Shown one piece after another: positions 4,316 to 35,322 of a stretch of DNA of 35,342 nt. The stretch is from a virus: positions 1 to 35,342 of the IMG/VR virus record IMGVR_UViG_3300042556_000041. The stretch is one strand, 5' to 3'. Each line of letters starts with the position of its first letter. The stretch's first letter is position 1. The notes under the pieces are model-generated. The model made no database searches. It saw nothing but the letters and a program-made list of their open reading frames with translations, and was not told the origin of the DNA. The translations under genes were made by a program, and so were the position numbers.

Positions 4316-5413
4316 TTAAGCGCCCCACTTAGCAGTCAGGCCGTCCGCATAGTTCTTGTTCACAATGTCTGTGGCTGCGCTTGGTGCAGTGGAGATCGTG
4401 CCGGTTGTCAATCCCACTGAAGTAATGTCAGTGTTTGCGCCGCTTTTGGCTGCAACTAAATTTGTTCTTGCATCCGTTGCCGTTGCCGCATTTGTGCCGC
4501 CATTTGCCACGGCTACGATCCCAGACACATTACCCGCTGTCAAAGCGGATTGCGCCTGTTTTTCCCACAAACTTGTGCTTGTGTTGTAGATTAAAACACT
4601 GCCGTTTGCTGGGTTTTGTGCCGACACATTGTGCAGCTCATCCATCTCGTAGCCGTTTTGCACCTTAACAATTAGCTTGCCATGAACGGGGTGAGCATGG
4701 GCAACAACAGCCACATACACCAAATGCTGTGGTGCGTAAGGCTTGGTAGCCGTCAAAGTTCCCGCTGTCGTTGGGCTGAGATAAAGCTGCGCCCCATCTG
4801 TATAGGCCGATGTGTCAAGATCATCAACCAAGCCAATGATGGTTACATAGCCATTTGAATTGTTTGCCAAATCAGTGGTTATCAATCCCAAAGTCTGCGC
4901 TGATGTGGCATCGCTTGTAGCCAGCGCCTTGGAAACAGTTGGAAGCTGTCCCGTAGCACCAGAAATATAGACCGCCGTGCCTTTTGTTAAGGTCGCACCA
5001 GTGCGATTTCGCACTCTCTCAACCACCACAGAGGCTGGTGACGTTTGCGATACCGAAAGATCAATAAGTGATCCAACCGCTGTAACGATGATGCTTGCAT
5101 CAGCAGAGGCAATTGACGTTATTGTCTTCTCAGAAGGCAGCGTTACAAAGACTTGCTTTGTGCCAGCGGCCAGGCTCAGCTTTGCCCCGCCAGTTGATGA
5201 GCTGATGACTGTATCGCGGGTCAGCGTGTTAGCCGAATACGTCCCTAGCCCCACTTCCCACTGCGTTTCGCCTTGGATTGTGTAATAAGTGGTGTTCCCG
5301 TTGCCCAGCGCAGAAAAGGCTTGGAAGCCTGTTACAGCGCCGTTTAGCGTCAGCGTCCCAGAACCTGTGGTGGTTGTGGTTTCCTGAACCCTATCGGCTA
5401 AAACTAAGCTCAT
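4316..5413 (-). CDS. Fibre-like virion protein encoded within the head module
   Basis: This 365-aa protein is low in charge and rich in Thr, Ser, Ala and Gly, as fibres are. The N-terminal 90 residues (starting MSLVLADRVQETTTTTGSGT) look like the virion-binding domain common at the start of phage fibre proteins. The C-terminus carries VANGGTNAATATDARTNL and ends in a DIVNKNYADGL segment, both typical tail-fibre repeats. It is encoded between portal and scaffold, far from the main fibre genes near 22-24 kb. It may be a head fibre or a second receptor-binding or tail appendage. The 4-bp overlap with the portal gene indicates co-expression. Confidence 0.7.
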   Translation of the reverse strand: MSLVLADRVQETTTTTGSGTLTLNGAVTGFQAFSALGNGNTTYYTIQGETQWEVGLGTYSANTLTRDTVISSSTGGAKLSLAAGTKQVFVTLPSEKTITSIASADASIIVTAVGSLIDLSVSQTSPASVVVERVRNRTGATLTKGTAVYISGATGQLPTVSKALATSDATSAQTLGLITTDLANNSNGYVTIIGLVDDLDTSAYTDGAQLYLSPTTAGTLTATKPYAPQHLVYVAVVAHAHPVHGKLIVKVQNGYEMDELHNVSAQNPANGSVLIYNTSTSLWEKQAQSALTAGNVSGIVAVANGGTNAATATDARTNLVAAKSGANTDITSVGLTTGTISTAPSAATDIVNKNYADGLTAKWGA

Positions 5414-13553: not shown

Positions 13554-13879
13554 CTGTGCGCCCCGTCCTGTGTCCTGTTGGTGGCCTCGCGGCTGCGCCA
13601 GATTTCTATGTCAAGCCTTGCTGCCTCAATCTCCCATTTGAGGGTTTCTTCCTTTTCTACAGCCAGCGCCAAACCTTTGATGAGCTGGACATACTCAGGG
13701 TCAGCATAAGCCTCACGCTCCTGTGCGTTTGCAGCCTCTACACCAGACTTTAAAGAGTCCTTCATCAGCATGGCCTTTTTAGACTTGCGAAACTCCTCAA
13801 GGTAGACCCGCTGGGCTTTGGCCTCGCCGTAGAGTGGTGCTCGATCCCTGATTGACTGTGCTGCGGCTTCGGGAATCAA
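13550..13879 (-). CDS. Conserved helical phage protein, unknown
   Basis: This 109-aa protein is almost all helix and highly charged. It includes AKAQRVYLEEFRKSKKAMLM (residues 20-39), NAQEREAYADPEYV and a C-terminal IEIWRSREATNR. I remember this exact layout in many phages that carry ERF or RecT annealases, usually next to the gene that lies upstream here, but no function has been assigned. A role with the recombination proteins is likely by association only. It overlaps both neighbours by 4 bp. Confidence 0.8.
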   Translation of the reverse strand: MIPEAAAQSIRDRAPLYGEAKAQRVYLEEFRKSKKAMLMKDSLKSGVEAANAQEREAYADPEYVQLIKGLALAVEKEETLKWEIEAARLDIEIWRSREATNRTQDGAHR

Positions 13880-14505
13880 GTCTTTTCCTCAATCGTGTAG
13901 AACCAATCATCACCGGCTGACCACTTGCGTGTGCCGTCTACAGTCCACAAGTTTTTAGCAGCTTGGAAGTCTGGAAACTTTGTCTCAGCAGGGATCAGGC
14001 TTTGGTCGTACCACAGGCATCTGTTGTTGGGCTGGCAGGCAAATTGGCCGTTGTCCAACTTAATCCAATTGCAAGACTTGTGTTCTTCAGCTTGTTCTGT
14101 AAACCCTGTGTCAATCTCCATCCCGTCAGCGCAGAAGTCTACAGTAAACATGTATTTGCCAAAGTGCCACAGCTTATCTTTGCCAAGGAACTTAACACCA
14201 AGATTGCGTAGCCCGATCTTTTCCACAATTGTGAACTTGTAGCCCATGCAGTCCCACAATTGGAGTGTGTCAATAGGCAGGTTGCCAGCGTCTGCATGCC
14301 ACACATACGCATGGATAGGCAGCTTGTCGTAAAGCGCCCCGTAAGCAGGCAGCAGCGACTCAATGCGAAACACTTGGCCGCGCAAGGCTTTCAGGCTGAC
14401 CCAAATGGCTGGCTCTAACTCACCAAACCCCTTTTCAAAGTTGTACAAAAACTCACGCTTAACAAAACACTTAACAGGCGGCAGTGATGCCACGATATAG
14501 CTCAT
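13876..14505 (-). CDS. Conserved phage protein of unknown function
   Basis: This 209-aa protein begins MSYIVASLPPVKCFVKREF. It contains YGALYDKLPIHAYVWHADA (about residues 55-73), LPIDTLQLWDCMGYKFTIVE, HFGKYMFTVDFC and DNGQFACQPNNRCLWYD. These blocks recur in a large family of uncharacterised proteins in aquatic phages as I remember them. No catalytic motif is obvious, and the many Trp/Tyr/Asp residues suggest a compact alpha/beta fold. It is coupled by 4-bp overlap to the helical protein that follows and abuts RusA. Confidence 0.8.
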   Translation of the reverse strand: MSYIVASLPPVKCFVKREFLYNFEKGFGELEPAIWVSLKALRGQVFRIESLLPAYGALYDKLPIHAYVWHADAGNLPIDTLQLWDCMGYKFTIVEKIGLRNLGVKFLGKDKLWHFGKYMFTVDFCADGMEIDTGFTEQAEEHKSCNWIKLDNGQFACQPNNRCLWYDQSLIPAETKFPDFQAAKNLWTVDGTRKWSAGDDWFYTIEEKT

Positions 14506-15093: not shown

Positions 15094-15196
15094 CAATGTC
15101 ACCTGTTAACTCCAGTGCTTGGTTGATGATGTGCAAAGGGTAGCGTTTACCCTCACGGGCTTTGTCCAAAATCTGAGTGGCCGTGAAATGGTTCAT
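14948..15196 (-). CDS. Small phage protein with overlapped C-terminus
   Basis: This 82-aa frame starts at an ATG coupled to the Cro-like stop (ATGA). The first 34 residues (TATQILDKAREGKRYPLHII then NQALELTGD) look like a real small phage protein that normally ends about here. The remaining 48 residues read through the start of the next gene in another frame and look like low-complexity shadow sequence. Either the stop was lost, or an indel separated it from the following frame. Function unknown. Confidence 0.6.
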   Translation of the reverse strand: MNHFTATQILDKAREGKRYPLHIINQALELTGDIDEPHAAMRGEGMDQAAQAEGQRVGGKRSPFVVAQGVIRHSADSWAVGV

Positions 15197-15372
15197 TTAA
15201 ACCACTCCGGCTGCATAACCTGTAGCTGGTAGAGCCTGCCATTGGGCAGCTTTTTCCAATGCGTCACAGCAGCTCTAGACACCCCTAGCAGCCGCGCCAG
15301 CTTTGCCTTGCTGCCAGCCTTGGCAATGGCGTTGTGCAACGCCGCTTGTTGTTGTTCAGTGATTAATTTCAT
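15193..15372 (-). CDS. Cro/YdaS-like helix-turn-helix regulator
   Basis: This 59-aa protein holds one HTH at residues 20-41 (SKAKLARLLGVSRAAVTHWK), with the pattern of Cro and YdaS proteins. It is the first leftward gene, facing the early operon across 160 bp, as a lytic-switch repressor would. The candidate promoter -10 (15385-15380) would put the RNA start at about 15373, next to the ATG at 15372, so the message may be leaderless. The only obvious regulator in the genome, with no integrase or cI-like partner, it probably tunes early transcription rather than keeping lysogeny. Likely operators are the 12-bp inverted repeats at 15379-15390 and 15479-15490. Confidence 0.85.
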   Translation of the reverse strand: MKLITEQQQAALHNAIAKAGSKAKLARLLGVSRAAVTHWKKLPNGRLYQLQVMQPEWFK

Positions 15373-15379
15373 CCCGCTG

Positions 15380-15407
15380 ATTGTATAGATTTCTAAGCAA
15401 TGTGCAA
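15380..15407 (-). promoter_or_regulatory. Leftward promoter candidate for the Cro-like gene
   Basis: The minus strand has TTGCAC (15407-15402) and TACAAT (15385-15380) with a 16-bp spacer. The -10 matches 5/6 and the -35 only 3/6. The expected start point is right at the ATG, suggesting a leaderless message, as for lambda cI from PRM. Confidence 0.45.
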
Positions 15408-15461
15408 TAGCTGATGCCTATAGGAATTGCCAAACCTATAAAAAGATTTGTGGCAAAAGAC

Positions 15462-15489
15462 TTTACATCTGTTAATTTATCTATACAAT
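15462..15489 (+). promoter_or_regulatory. Rightward early promoter
   Basis: TTTACA (15462-15467) and TACAAT (15484-15489) are 16 bp apart and each matches consensus at 5/6. RNA would start near 15496 and serve the whole rightward early operon. Confidence 0.6.
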
Positions 15490-15499
15490 CCATAGCAAT

Positions 15500-15522
15500 C
15501 CCACTACTTCGGTGGGTCTTTT
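15500..15522 (+). promoter_or_regulatory. 5' leader hairpin with U-rich tail
   Basis: CCCAC (15500-15504) pairs with GTGGG (15512-15516) around a TACTTCG loop, followed by TCTTTT. It resembles a terminator, but it lies almost at the predicted RNA start, so it more likely protects the 5' end or marks an upstream transcript's stop. The ribosome site AGGAG of the first gene follows directly. Confidence 0.45.
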
Positions 15523-15532
15523 AGGAGCAAGT

Positions 15533-15748
15533 ATGAACATTCACTTTGACGAAATCCTTGACGGGTTTCGCTACACCGGCTTAGCCGACCTAGAGCCTGC
15601 CGAGACAGCAACCGACCTAAGCCCAGGCTGGCCGGTCATTGTCACAGTCTACGCCCTTCACGTTGACGGGTCGCACAAAGACTTTATGGACATCATCAAC
15701 CCCTCGATCATTCAGCAGATCGAAAAGTCTATTGCGGAGGACAGATGA
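15533..15748 (+). CDS. First early gene, unknown
   Basis: This 71-aa acidic protein starts at the ATG at 15533 with AGGAG 7 nt upstream; a GTG frame start at 15512 falls inside the leader hairpin and is rejected. Residues 1-20 contain FDEILDGFRYTGLADLEPAE, and a central segment SPGWPVIVTVYALHVDGSH resembles small phage proteins that start with a beta strand pair. No known motif is present. As the first gene after the early promoter it may act on the host early, but that is inference. It overlaps the next gene (ATGA). Confidence 0.75.
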   Translation: MNIHFDEILDGFRYTGLADLEPAETATDLSPGWPVIVTVYALHVDGSHKDFMDIINPSIIQQIEKSIAEDR

Positions 15749-15831
15749 AAAACCTTGCCTTTGACCTCTTGCTTGCCACAGCCATTGGCTTTGGCCTTGC
15801 CCTTTCCCTTGTTGTCTGGTGGTCAGCATGA
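15745..15831 (+). CDS. 28-aa single-pass membrane microprotein
   Basis: This tiny frame is nearly all one hydrophobic helix (residues 5-25, ending LVVWWSA) with one Lys at the N-terminus. It has a GGAGG ribosome site 5-9 nt before the ATG and overlaps both neighbours through ATGA junctions, so it is probably translated. It would insert in the inner membrane with a very short cytoplasmic end. Such early phage microproteins often modify host enzymes or exclude other phages, but nothing here says which. Confidence 0.6.
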   Translation: MKNLAFDLLLATAIGFGLALSLVVWWSA

Positions 15832-16022
15832 ATGCCGAGCAGATCATCCAAGCCGCTGAAACCGGCAGCAAGTGCAGCGCTGACCCGCTTGTCCGGTGCG
15901 CTTACCAAGTGGGCTTTTTACGACATAGCGTACATGAGCTGTGCCAAGTCATAGAAGACCAGCGCCACCATCTCCAGATTGCCACGGAAGAATTGCAGCA
16001 CCTACAACGTGAATTAACTTGA
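15828..16022 (+). CDS. Small early helical protein, unknown
   Basis: This 64-aa protein starts at the ATG at 15828, overlapping the microprotein's stop (ATGA), with little ribosome site of its own, so it is probably coupled. Residues 1-30 (AEQIIQAAETGSKCSADPLV) are followed by a long helix with many Gln, His and Glu residues (VIEDQRHHLQIATEELQHLQ), perhaps a short coiled coil. Two Cys and several His could bind metal. No family recognised. Confidence 0.65.
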   Translation: MNAEQIIQAAETGSKCSADPLVRCAYQVGFLRHSVHELCQVIEDQRHHLQIATEELQHLQRELT

Positions 16023-16030
16023 AAGAAACC

Positions 16031-16588
16031 ATGAAAAACATTGCAACCGCCTTAGTACAGGCACAAAAGGCTTTTGGCCCAGCTCTTAAAAGCGCCACAA
16101 ACCCGCACTTCCGTAGCAAATACGCAGACCTTGCCGCTTGCGTTGATGCTGTTATGAGCAGCCTTAACGCTGCTGGCATAGCCCTGATCCAGAAATGCTA
16201 CGACTGCGACAACGGAGTGATGGTGGAAACAGTCTTTGTCCACGAATCTGGCGAAACGCTGGAGTGCGGCATTCTCCATGTGCCAGCAAGCAAGCAAGAC
16301 CCACAGGGCTACGGCAGCGCACTTACATACGCAAGGCGCTATAGCCTCATGGCAGCTTGCGGCATCGCACCCGAGGATGATGATGGCAACAGCGCCAGCC
16401 GCCGCACAGAGATCAGGACAGTGGACGGGCTGACAGACCATCTCAGCGCCATTAATGCAGCCGCTGATGCCCCAGCGTTAATTAAGGCTTTTAAAGAAGG
16501 CTACGCCGCCTGTAAGGGTGATGAAGCCTGGCAAAACACAATCATCAAGGCCAAGGATGCCATGAAAAAGAAATTGGGAGCAGTCTAA
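16031..16588 (+). CDS. erf: ERF-family single-strand annealing protein
   Basis: This 185-aa protein shows the ERF pattern: AQKAFGPALKSATNPHFRSK near residues 11-30, KYADLAACVDAV, and the signature GSALTYARRYSLMAACGI then DDDGN at 95-120. It anneals complementary single strands with the adjacent exonuclease to join or circularise phage DNA. I chose the ATG at 16031; a TTG at 16019 that overlaps the preceding stop would add four residues. The C-terminal 65 residues form a helical tail. Its stop overlaps the exonuclease start. Confidence 0.92.
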   Translation: MKNIATALVQAQKAFGPALKSATNPHFRSKYADLAACVDAVMSSLNAAGIALIQKCYDCDNGVMVETVFVHESGETLECGILHVPASKQDPQGYGSALTYARRYSLMAACGIAPEDDDGNSASRRTEIRTVDGLTDHLSAINAAADAPALIKAFKEGYAACKGDEAWQNTIIKAKDAMKKKLGAV

Positions 16589-17193
16589 TGGATCAGCGCA
16601 CACCCGAATGGTTTGCCGCCCGATTGGGCAAGGTAACCGCCAGCCGCATCAGCGACATCATTAGCAAAACTCAGTCAGGCTACTCAGCCAGCCGTGCCAA
16701 CTACATGGCGCTGTTGATCTGCGAAAGGCTGACAGGCGCTGCTGCCGAGTCGTACAGCAATGCTGCAATGCAGCACGGCACAGACACTGAGCCAATGGCG
16801 TTGTCTGCGTATGAGGCCGCACAAGGCGTTTTAGTGCAAGCCGAAGGCTTTGTCACCCATCCGTCAATTGAGCAGTCTGGGGCTTCTCCTGATGGCTTGG
16901 TGGGCGACTCGGGCTTGATCGAAATCAAGTGTTTGAACACTGCCAACCATTTGGATATTTTGCTTGCCAAAAAGATGCCGACAAAGCACCGGCCACAAGT
17001 CCAGTGGCAGATGGCCTGCACAAGGCGGCACTGGTGCGATTTTGTCAGCTACGACCCGCGACTGCCAGAACGACTGCAAATGTTTGTTGTGCGCGAGGTC
17101 TACGATCCTGTCTATGTGGCAGGGCTGGAAACTGAAGTGGTTAAATTTCTTGGCGAGATGGAAAGCAAAATTAAGGAACTTGAAAAATTATGA
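16588..17193 (+). CDS. YqaJ / lambda-type 5'-3' exonuclease
   Basis: This 201-aa nuclease begins with the family signature TPEWFAARLGKVTASR (residues 5-20). It carries HGTDTEPMALSAYE (63-76, Glu68), SPDGLVGD (100-107, Asp102) and LIEIKCL (110-116, Glu112 and Lys114), the catalytic set of lambda exonuclease and YqaJ proteins. It digests one strand from duplex ends to make substrates for the ERF protein beside it. Length is normal. Start and stop overlap both neighbours, so the three recombination genes are coupled. Confidence 0.93.
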   Translation: MDQRTPEWFAARLGKVTASRISDIISKTQSGYSASRANYMALLICERLTGAAAESYSNAAMQHGTDTEPMALSAYEAAQGVLVQAEGFVTHPSIEQSGASPDGLVGDSGLIEIKCLNTANHLDILLAKKMPTKHRPQVQWQMACTRRHWCDFVSYDPRLPERLQMFVVREVYDPVYVAGLETEVVKFLGEMESKIKELEKL

Positions 17194-17522: not shown

Positions 17523-17834
17523 ATGGACTACAAAGACGTTTTCAAAAAGATTTTCCCATTACCGGAATTTCCACGGGTGCGTAATAGTGACCCAGCAACA
17601 TCACATGAGGCGGCAGCATCCATCACAGATGTCAGCTCCCACTACGCTCAAATTTTGGAAGCGCTTTCTACGATTGGGCCTTTGGGCAAGGATGGCATCT
17701 CGTTTTACTCACGGCTTGACCCTAACCAGATTTCCAGGCGCTTGAAAGAAATGCAGAAACTTGGCCTGATCCGTTTGACCGGCAAGACAGTGAAGTCAAA
17801 CTCCAATCACCCAGAAAGAGAGTGGACACTATGA
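17523..17834 (+). CDS. Winged-helix DNA-binding-like protein
   Basis: This 103-aa protein contains RNSDPATSHEAAASIT (residues 20-35), a motif common at the start of a phage winged-helix group. A helix-turn-helix with IGPLGKDGISFYSRLDPNQI then SRRLKEMQKLGLIRLTGK (about 51-87) ends in a beta wing. It probably binds DNA as a regulator or helps replication initiation, but no catalytic site is visible. It follows the internal terminator with AAGG a few bases before the ATG and overlaps the next gene by 4 bp. Confidence 0.75.
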   Translation: MDYKDVFKKIFPLPEFPRVRNSDPATSHEAAASITDVSSHYAQILEALSTIGPLGKDGISFYSRLDPNQISRRLKEMQKLGLIRLTGKTVKSNSNHPEREWTL

Positions 17835-34628: not shown

Positions 34629-35322
34629 TCAATGCCGTCCTTGATGTTGCCAATGTAGATCGGGAAACCCTCTAGCGCAGGGTGAGGCTCTGCCACCACA
34701 AAGCAACCCTGTCGGATCGCCTCAATTGCTCTGTTGGCGCTCTTGTAAGTCTCTGTAGCGGGTAGCACCACAATGTCAGCTTGTGCAAACTCTTTGAGCA
34801 TGGTCTTTTTTGACCACGGAATTGACCCTGCAAAGTTGGACACCACCCGTAGGTGATAACCCGCTATCTCAGGCAAAATGCGCTCTAGGCTTGCTCTGTT
34901 AACTTGATGACCATACCACAACAGGTTAACACCCTTGCAATGAGGCTTCTTCAACGGGTACTCAAACGGGTCAGGAATGACCACGGCATCACGCCCCAGC
35001 ACCTTGATGCGCCTTGCCATCTCCTCAGTGGGGCAAGTGACCACATCGGCCAGGCGCAGCGCCTCTTGGTAGTGCATCCAATCAAAGTGGTCATCGCAAA
35101 AGTCCACCACAATCCATGCGCCCCGTGCCTTGGCCCGTGCCATGTCCATCAGCTCTTGCGCTTGGGGCTTGGCAAACACCAGCGTGTCAGCCGTCAGGTC
35201 GTTAAGGCTGGCCCAATCCCCTGCCGGTATCTTGGCACGATAGCGCCAGCTTGCCGATTTGTTGTCGCCCCAATGAATGAACGATGTGCGTGTGTTTAGC
35301 TCTTTGCGCTTGTCAATCAGCC
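34472..35322 (-). CDS. DUF115 + glycosyltransferase fusion, C-terminal part (starts at 907 through circle)
   Basis: This is the same gene as 1-907; the frame enters from 35322 and ends at 34472. The part encoded only here (residues 303-543) looks like a glycosyltransferase of the GT-B type: AWIVVDFCDDHFDWMHYQEA and CPTEEMARRIKVLG (middle region), VVIPDPFEY, LLWYGHQVNRASL, and ADIVVLPATETYKSANRAIE then CFVVAEPHPALEGFPIYIGN as the donor-binding lobe. The end overlaps the methyltransferase gene by 157 bp. A GTG at 35179 would give a false, truncated 235-aa protein if the circle is ignored. Confidence 0.85.
35197..35322. repeat. Terminal overlap, right copy
   Basis: These bases are identical to 1-126. 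Counting this copy once gives a circular genome of about 35,196 bp. Confidence 0.95.

Follow-up and report, generated by a model that had tools for sequence, protein, structure and literature searches.

How does a phage genome that holds a single small helix-turn-helix (HTH) protein beside its divergent promoters govern its early transcription? The question is raised by positions 15373-15532 of the IMG/VR virus record IMGVR_UViG_3300042556_000041, analysed over its whole stretch of 35,342 nucleotides, here called the window. Bases 1-126 repeat exactly at 35197-35322 and are followed there by 20 unmatched bases, so the record is a circular assembly with a unit of about 35.2 kb and a short ragged end. 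Since the family-matched genes outside 15.5-18.8 kb all lie on the minus strand, 15373-15532 is the one clear divergence point. The leftward genes are cro, RusA, a ferredoxin-like moron, terminase, portal, and head and tail genes; a PHROG 3704 protein, named ferredoxin, is encoded in this operon at 13876-14505. The rightward operon opens with a 71-aa gene without a family match (15533-15748, plus strand, ATG at 15533) and includes genes assigned by family matches to an Erf-like annealing protein and a YqaJ-type exonuclease (16019-17193, plus strand).

The small HTH protein that a sequence-only reading had placed beside the region is encoded at 15193-15372 on the minus strand. This cro-type product of 59 aa matches the P22_Cro family (PF14549) with 38.8 bits, above the curated cut-off of 30.2, and also YdaS (PF15943), over residues 12-41 only, with 31.4 bits against a cut-off of 30.0. 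It was assigned to phrog_409 in a PHROG search, and among solved structures P22 Cro (1RZS, E 2e-7) lies nearest to it by profile. The predicted model, of modest confidence (mean pLDDT 72), is all-helical with five helices, and a fold search with it listed Xfaso 1 Cro, P22 Cro and N15 Cro at the top, as weak matches none of which had E <= 0.001. P22_Cro was above its cut-off in 16 of 16 records searched, and a search of genome contigs found a single relative, in Photorhabdus. Among eight near relatives the variable sites of cro numbered 5, 0 and 21 at the three codon positions; the gene is thus under purifying selection. This selection, and the conservation of both proposed binding sites described below, make it very improbable that the region is merely what remains, largely without function, of the lysogeny control of a temperate ancestor, even if there are, among Streptococcus thermophilus phages, virulent ones that are related to temperate phages and still carry cro.

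A leftward open reading frame of 45 aa spanning the whole region (15356-15493) was rejected as a gene, its variable sites being spread evenly over the codon positions (19, 16 and 18 in 14 distinct sequences) and a stop occurring at codon 11 in five relatives. In several relatives this frame reads as a hydrophobic membrane peptide, without codon-position bias.

Neither a partner repressor nor an integrase had been noticed in the sequence-only reading, and profile searches gave the same result: none of 13 environmental records, that of the window included, matched Phage_integrase, HTH_3, Peptidase_S24 or Resolvase. Most of the other records (18.9-35.1 kb) are perhaps fragments. With the same searches, HTH_3 and S24 were found beside Cro in the control isolate prophages G013 and G014, and in G014 integrase and resolvase as well. 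A lambdoid lysis-lysogeny switch is recognised by a CI-type repressor beside cro and by an integration system, and these searches found neither in the window record. A repressor of an unrecognised type is possible, and these phages are apparently strictly lytic.

Within the divergent region two 12-bp arms form a perfect inverted repeat, exactly where they had been reported: the left arm, GATTGTATAGAT, at 15379-15390 (minus strand) and the right arm, ATCTATACAATC, at 15479-15490 (plus strand), separated by 88 nt. Dinucleotide shuffling of the 162-bp region 15373-15534 produced a comparable inverted repeat, perfect and no shorter than 12 bp, in 2 of 2000 cases, and in a scan of the whole 35,342-base window the exact 12-mer was confined to the two arms. 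TACAAT, a 5/6 match to the -10 consensus, lies within each arm, in agreement with the proposal that the arms overlap the -10 of both divergent promoters. Rightward, the promoter scan gave a -35 element TTTACA at 15462-15467 and a -10 element TACAAT at 15484-15489 (both plus strand, 16-nt spacer), with a predicted start at about 15496; this was the only sigma-70-like site that the scanner returned in 15100-15900. The leftward promoter, TTGCAC-16-TACAAT, was read by eye and is absent from the scanner output. Its -35 element (15402-15407, minus strand) is kept or nearly kept in relatives, and its -10 element (15380-15385, minus strand) lies 7 nt before the ATG of cro, so that the predicted start is at or beside 15372.

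The 14 near relatives, the window counted among them, gave 11 distinct haplotypes of equal length. Both arms are identical in 11 of these 14, while one position differs in L009, L015 and L022. As judged by conservation, the unit that is kept is not the 12-bp arm, but a putative 18-bp site that starts 6 bp further from the nearer gene. The left proposed operator, TGCTTAGAAATCTATACA (15382-15399, minus strand), covers the cro -10 and spacer, and the right one, TGTTAATTTATCTATACA (15470-15487, plus strand), covers the rightward spacer and -10. The left site varies at 2 of 18 positions in the 11 haplotypes and the right site at 0 of 18; the resulting 2 variable positions in 36 compare with 30 in 70 in the stretch between the sites (Fisher exact p 4e-5, indicative only, as the haplotypes are related). 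At the right site the conserved block has a sharp outer edge that coincides with the end of the 18 bp, which points to an 18-bp unit of 7-4-7 layout; the 12-bp arms correspond to the inner, -10-proximal part of these sites plus three bases.

Because the -10 hexamer fills half of each arm, the arms may owe some of their likeness and conservation to the promoter rather than to an operator. Taken to its end, this consideration gives an alternative in which the arms reflect no more than two promoters that share their -10 surroundings and are read by RNA polymerase or a host factor, and Cro acts elsewhere; TACAAT does account for six of the twelve bases in both promoters. However, TGTTAA and TGCTTAG, beyond the hexamers, are conserved as well, in contrast to a variable right -35 region, and a Cro gene adjoining divergent promoters is the standard layout. 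More distant relatives bear on both sides. L020, L021 and L011 share the recognition helix of the window protein; their sites keep TG[CT]T[AT]AG, the outer half, and are changed in the -10-proximal half, and in L020 and L021 such a change despite an unchanged helix counts in favour of the promoter-only explanation. Against it stand the group B relatives (Cro 52-64% identical), in which 12 of 12 regions carry 4-8 copies of [CG]TTAA[CG], whereas shuffles have a mean of 0.15-0.34 and never more than 3; one of these copies, at -26 from the ATG, corresponds in position to CTTAGA at -25 in the window. We therefore regard the promoter-only explanation as unlikely, and the 18-bp sites are treated below as candidate Cro operators.

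The comparison of left with right sites, made to detect pairwise coevolution of the two, was mixed, and little weight is given to it here. The two sites agree at 14 of 18 positions both in the window group (reached in 1 of 60 shuffles) and in L021 (0 of 60), and the resemblance was not clear against shuffles in L015 (5 of 60), L020 (15 of 60) and L011 (13 of 60). In L021 and L011 the right site lies over the -35 and not over the -10. For the loci with another regulator, between 21 and 59 of 60 shuffles reached the observed resemblance, the right-hand blocks of these five loci having been cut at a fixed distance that probably missed part of the promoters.

With a gap of 7 nt between the leftward -10 and the cro ATG, a transcript start at the ATG, as had been predicted from the sequence alone, is plausible, and comparison favours a leaderless message. 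It was made on 39 starts, picked because the gene directly follows the divergent region, and reduced to 22 distinct ones by removal of those at least 93% alike. A Shine-Dalgarno sequence is missing at 22 of 22: not one start has so much as 3 nt of AGGAGG at the usual position, whereas among 38 other genes of the window 21 have at least 4 nt of it (one of the 38 control starts was entered as 15535, the true ATG being 15533; the outcome is unchanged). Conversely, a -10-like hexamer with at least 4 of 6 matches to TATAAT ends 6-7 nt before the ATG at 21 of the 22 starts, and 16 of them reach 5 matches, while none of the 38 control genes has 5 or more at that gap. The average match to TATAAT peaks only at a gap of 6-7 nt. 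The cro message is thus probably leaderless, as far as promoter position and start context can tell.

When all 80 loci of one search were taken, unselected, 43 were of the leaderless type, 26 had a Shine-Dalgarno sequence of at least 4 nt, 11 had neither and none had both. The 11 comprise L002, L013, L014, L017 and L018, in which the P22-type gene is not first in the operon, L011, which has too weak a hexamer, and five isolate prophages. The predicted leaderless layout is common among the relatives but not general, because in group C, to which the published phage MW202544 belongs, cro stands behind a leader with a Shine-Dalgarno sequence. The parallel drawn earlier was with lambda cI transcribed from PRM; phage PY54, considered below, is the nearer precedent.

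The rightward message is predicted to form a hairpin near its 5' end (15500-15516, plus strand), beginning about 4 nt past the predicted start, followed by UCUUUU and AGGAG, and kept in relatives. Group B has a hairpin of other sequence at the like place, with a loop holding CTTAACAA. Its stem covaries, 91.7% of the cells being paired with a score of 0.407 against 0.256 in shuffles (reached by 0 of 500), and one of the ten rows is misaligned and counts against covariation. An intrinsic terminator or attenuator is unlikely, as the hairpin ends about 20 nt past the predicted start and the Shine-Dalgarno sequence of the first gene follows; we take it to be a 5'-end hairpin, which is the better reading. 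A scan with the leader sequence returned 82 stretches, and the hairpin was present in 15 of the 80 places read, 13 of them in relatives already known; the remaining two (L174, L214) are unrelated coding sequence. An Rfam search of the window gave no match.

In the five loci L002, L013, L014, L017 and L018 the gene adjoining the region encodes a different HTH protein of 62 aa; an HNH-like gene comes second in the leftward operon and the P22-type gene third. In relatives of the 62-aa protein (L239-L250) the ATG is preceded, at 6 nt, by a -10-like hexamer, and they are of the leaderless type; among the loci with the other regulator, the nearest still have the rightward hairpin leader. Because the other regulator is likewise leaderless in type and the nearest of its loci retain the hairpin leader, the comparison suggests that regulator and sites may be exchanged as a unit within a fixed frame. 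A wider picture can be drawn only tentatively, and we would sooner expect it to fail than to hold: a widespread freshwater lineage without lysogeny genes, whose genome would be run from one divergent point by a single leaderless Cro-type autorepressor, the regulator (P22_Cro type or the 62-aa HTH type, which looks unrelated to it) and its mirrored sites being swapped as a cassette while the leaderless layout and the 5' hairpin are kept. If it were true, leaderless translation would allow the repressor to be made by undissociated ribosomes when infection strains initiation.

Two further features of these loci were observed. In L013 the second small HTH regulator lies at 2662-2847, ahead of the HNH-like gene and the P22-type cro. 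In L002, around 4700-5177, the HNH-like frame enters the cro frame without a stop, and a fusion is possible.

The reading that we favour, with a probability of roughly 0.68 and on the strength of sequence comparison, is that 15373-15532 holds the divergent early promoters of a phage genome, assembled as a circle, and that a single Cro-type autorepressor controls them without CI. Host polymerase would fire rightward into Erf, the exonuclease and other small genes, and leftward into cro, RusA and the rest of the genome, both promoters carrying the same operator in mirror image over the -10 and spacer. The leftward message would begin at the ATG of cro, so that Cro would be made immediately and without a Shine-Dalgarno leader. 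As Cro rises it would bind both sites and cover both -10 elements, and bound Cro would lower the rightward early genes as well as its own synthesis. With no opposing CI, this would act as a timer or level control and not as a two-state switch. The sequences themselves show the protein family, the repeats and their conservation, the steady spacing from -10 to ATG and the lack of the lysogeny families that were searched for; from them we infer Cro binding, repression, the transcript starts, the timing and the later expression of the late leftward genes; the long leftward operon could be kept running by promoters further left, by partial repression or by an activator.

The arrangement had been called a one-protein switch, and this part of the earlier proposal is unlikely. 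When one protein represses its own and the divergent promoter, a model with 2000 random parameter sets never gave more than one steady state; because negative feedback alone yields a single steady state, negative autoregulation rather than a two-state choice is to be expected. A true two-state switch would call for a second, unrecognised regulator that opposes Cro, and might permit a carrier or plasmid-like state. The possible candidate is a 103-aa protein of the rightward operon (17523-17834, plus strand), weakly MarR-like, whose gene is kept in 11 of 16 records and whose counterpart in MW202544 is annotated as MarR; besides, a repressor of unknown type would be invisible to the HTH_3, S24 and integrase searches. 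Yet the MarR_2 match is weak (16.5 bits, cut-off 27), the gene is absent in group B (G009, G010), and no partition, integrase or resolvase gene was found, the last two having been covered by profile searches. An opposed pair of regulators is thus improbable, rather more so than the promoter-only explanation of the arms, and Cro acting by negative autoregulation is retained as the preferred reading.

Most work on Cro treats it as one of two repressors that together make a decision, and in this phage group it seems to be the main early regulator alone. The start of its message appears conserved although the -10 sequence, the sites and even the regulator change. What Cro does without lysogeny, and why a phage repressor message should be leaderless, become questions that can be tested. 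A literature search that covered few subscription journals found nothing on a Cro-only, CI-less early region in this phage group.

Among known systems, P22 immC shares with the window the HTH family (PF14549) and a small protein beside divergent promoters. P22 operators are 18-bp sites of 7-4-7 layout whose consensus has a TTA-G half, which the proposed window sites resemble. Unlike P22, the window has no c2/CI partner and no integrase, its cro message is apparently leaderless, and its protein, compared with P22 Cro, is extended at the N-terminus and shortened at the C-terminus. The virulent Streptococcus thermophilus phages DT1 and Sfi19 keep cro without working lysogeny; they are phages of Gram-positive hosts, and their operators are unrelated to those of the window.

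MW202544 (ctTH923, Manatee Spring), a published circular phage, shares the genome plan, with one divergent point and Erf-exonuclease rightward, and it and related environmental phages have a Cro of the same family. No repressor or integrase is annotated among its 52 CDS; unlike the window cro, its cro has a leader with a Shine-Dalgarno sequence. The Cro gene of MW202544.1 (15257-15400) is itself unannotated, opposite-strand ORFs being annotated there instead.

The YdaS/PaaR2 region of prophage CP-933P is related through the YdaS family (PF15943), which also matches the window protein. There YdaS, which is Cro-like, acts as repressor of the two divergent promoters and one message is leaderless, but this is the message of the CI analogue paaR2, and two competing regulators give two states, unlike the window (PMC8630535). 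PY54, N15 and phiKO2 have an all-helical Cro at immB, and for PY54 5'-RACE shows that both cI and cro are leaderless, as predicted for the window cro (PMC4488713). A leaderless cro as such is thus not new. These phages possess a CI/CB repressor, whereas none was found in the window by the searches above, and PY54 Cro has a single binding site and is considered not to be an autorepressor, while the window has two mirrored candidate sites over both promoters. The component parts are therefore of known kinds, and what is new is their combination, a region that is CI-less, apparently leaderless and kept across an apparent exchange of its regulator.
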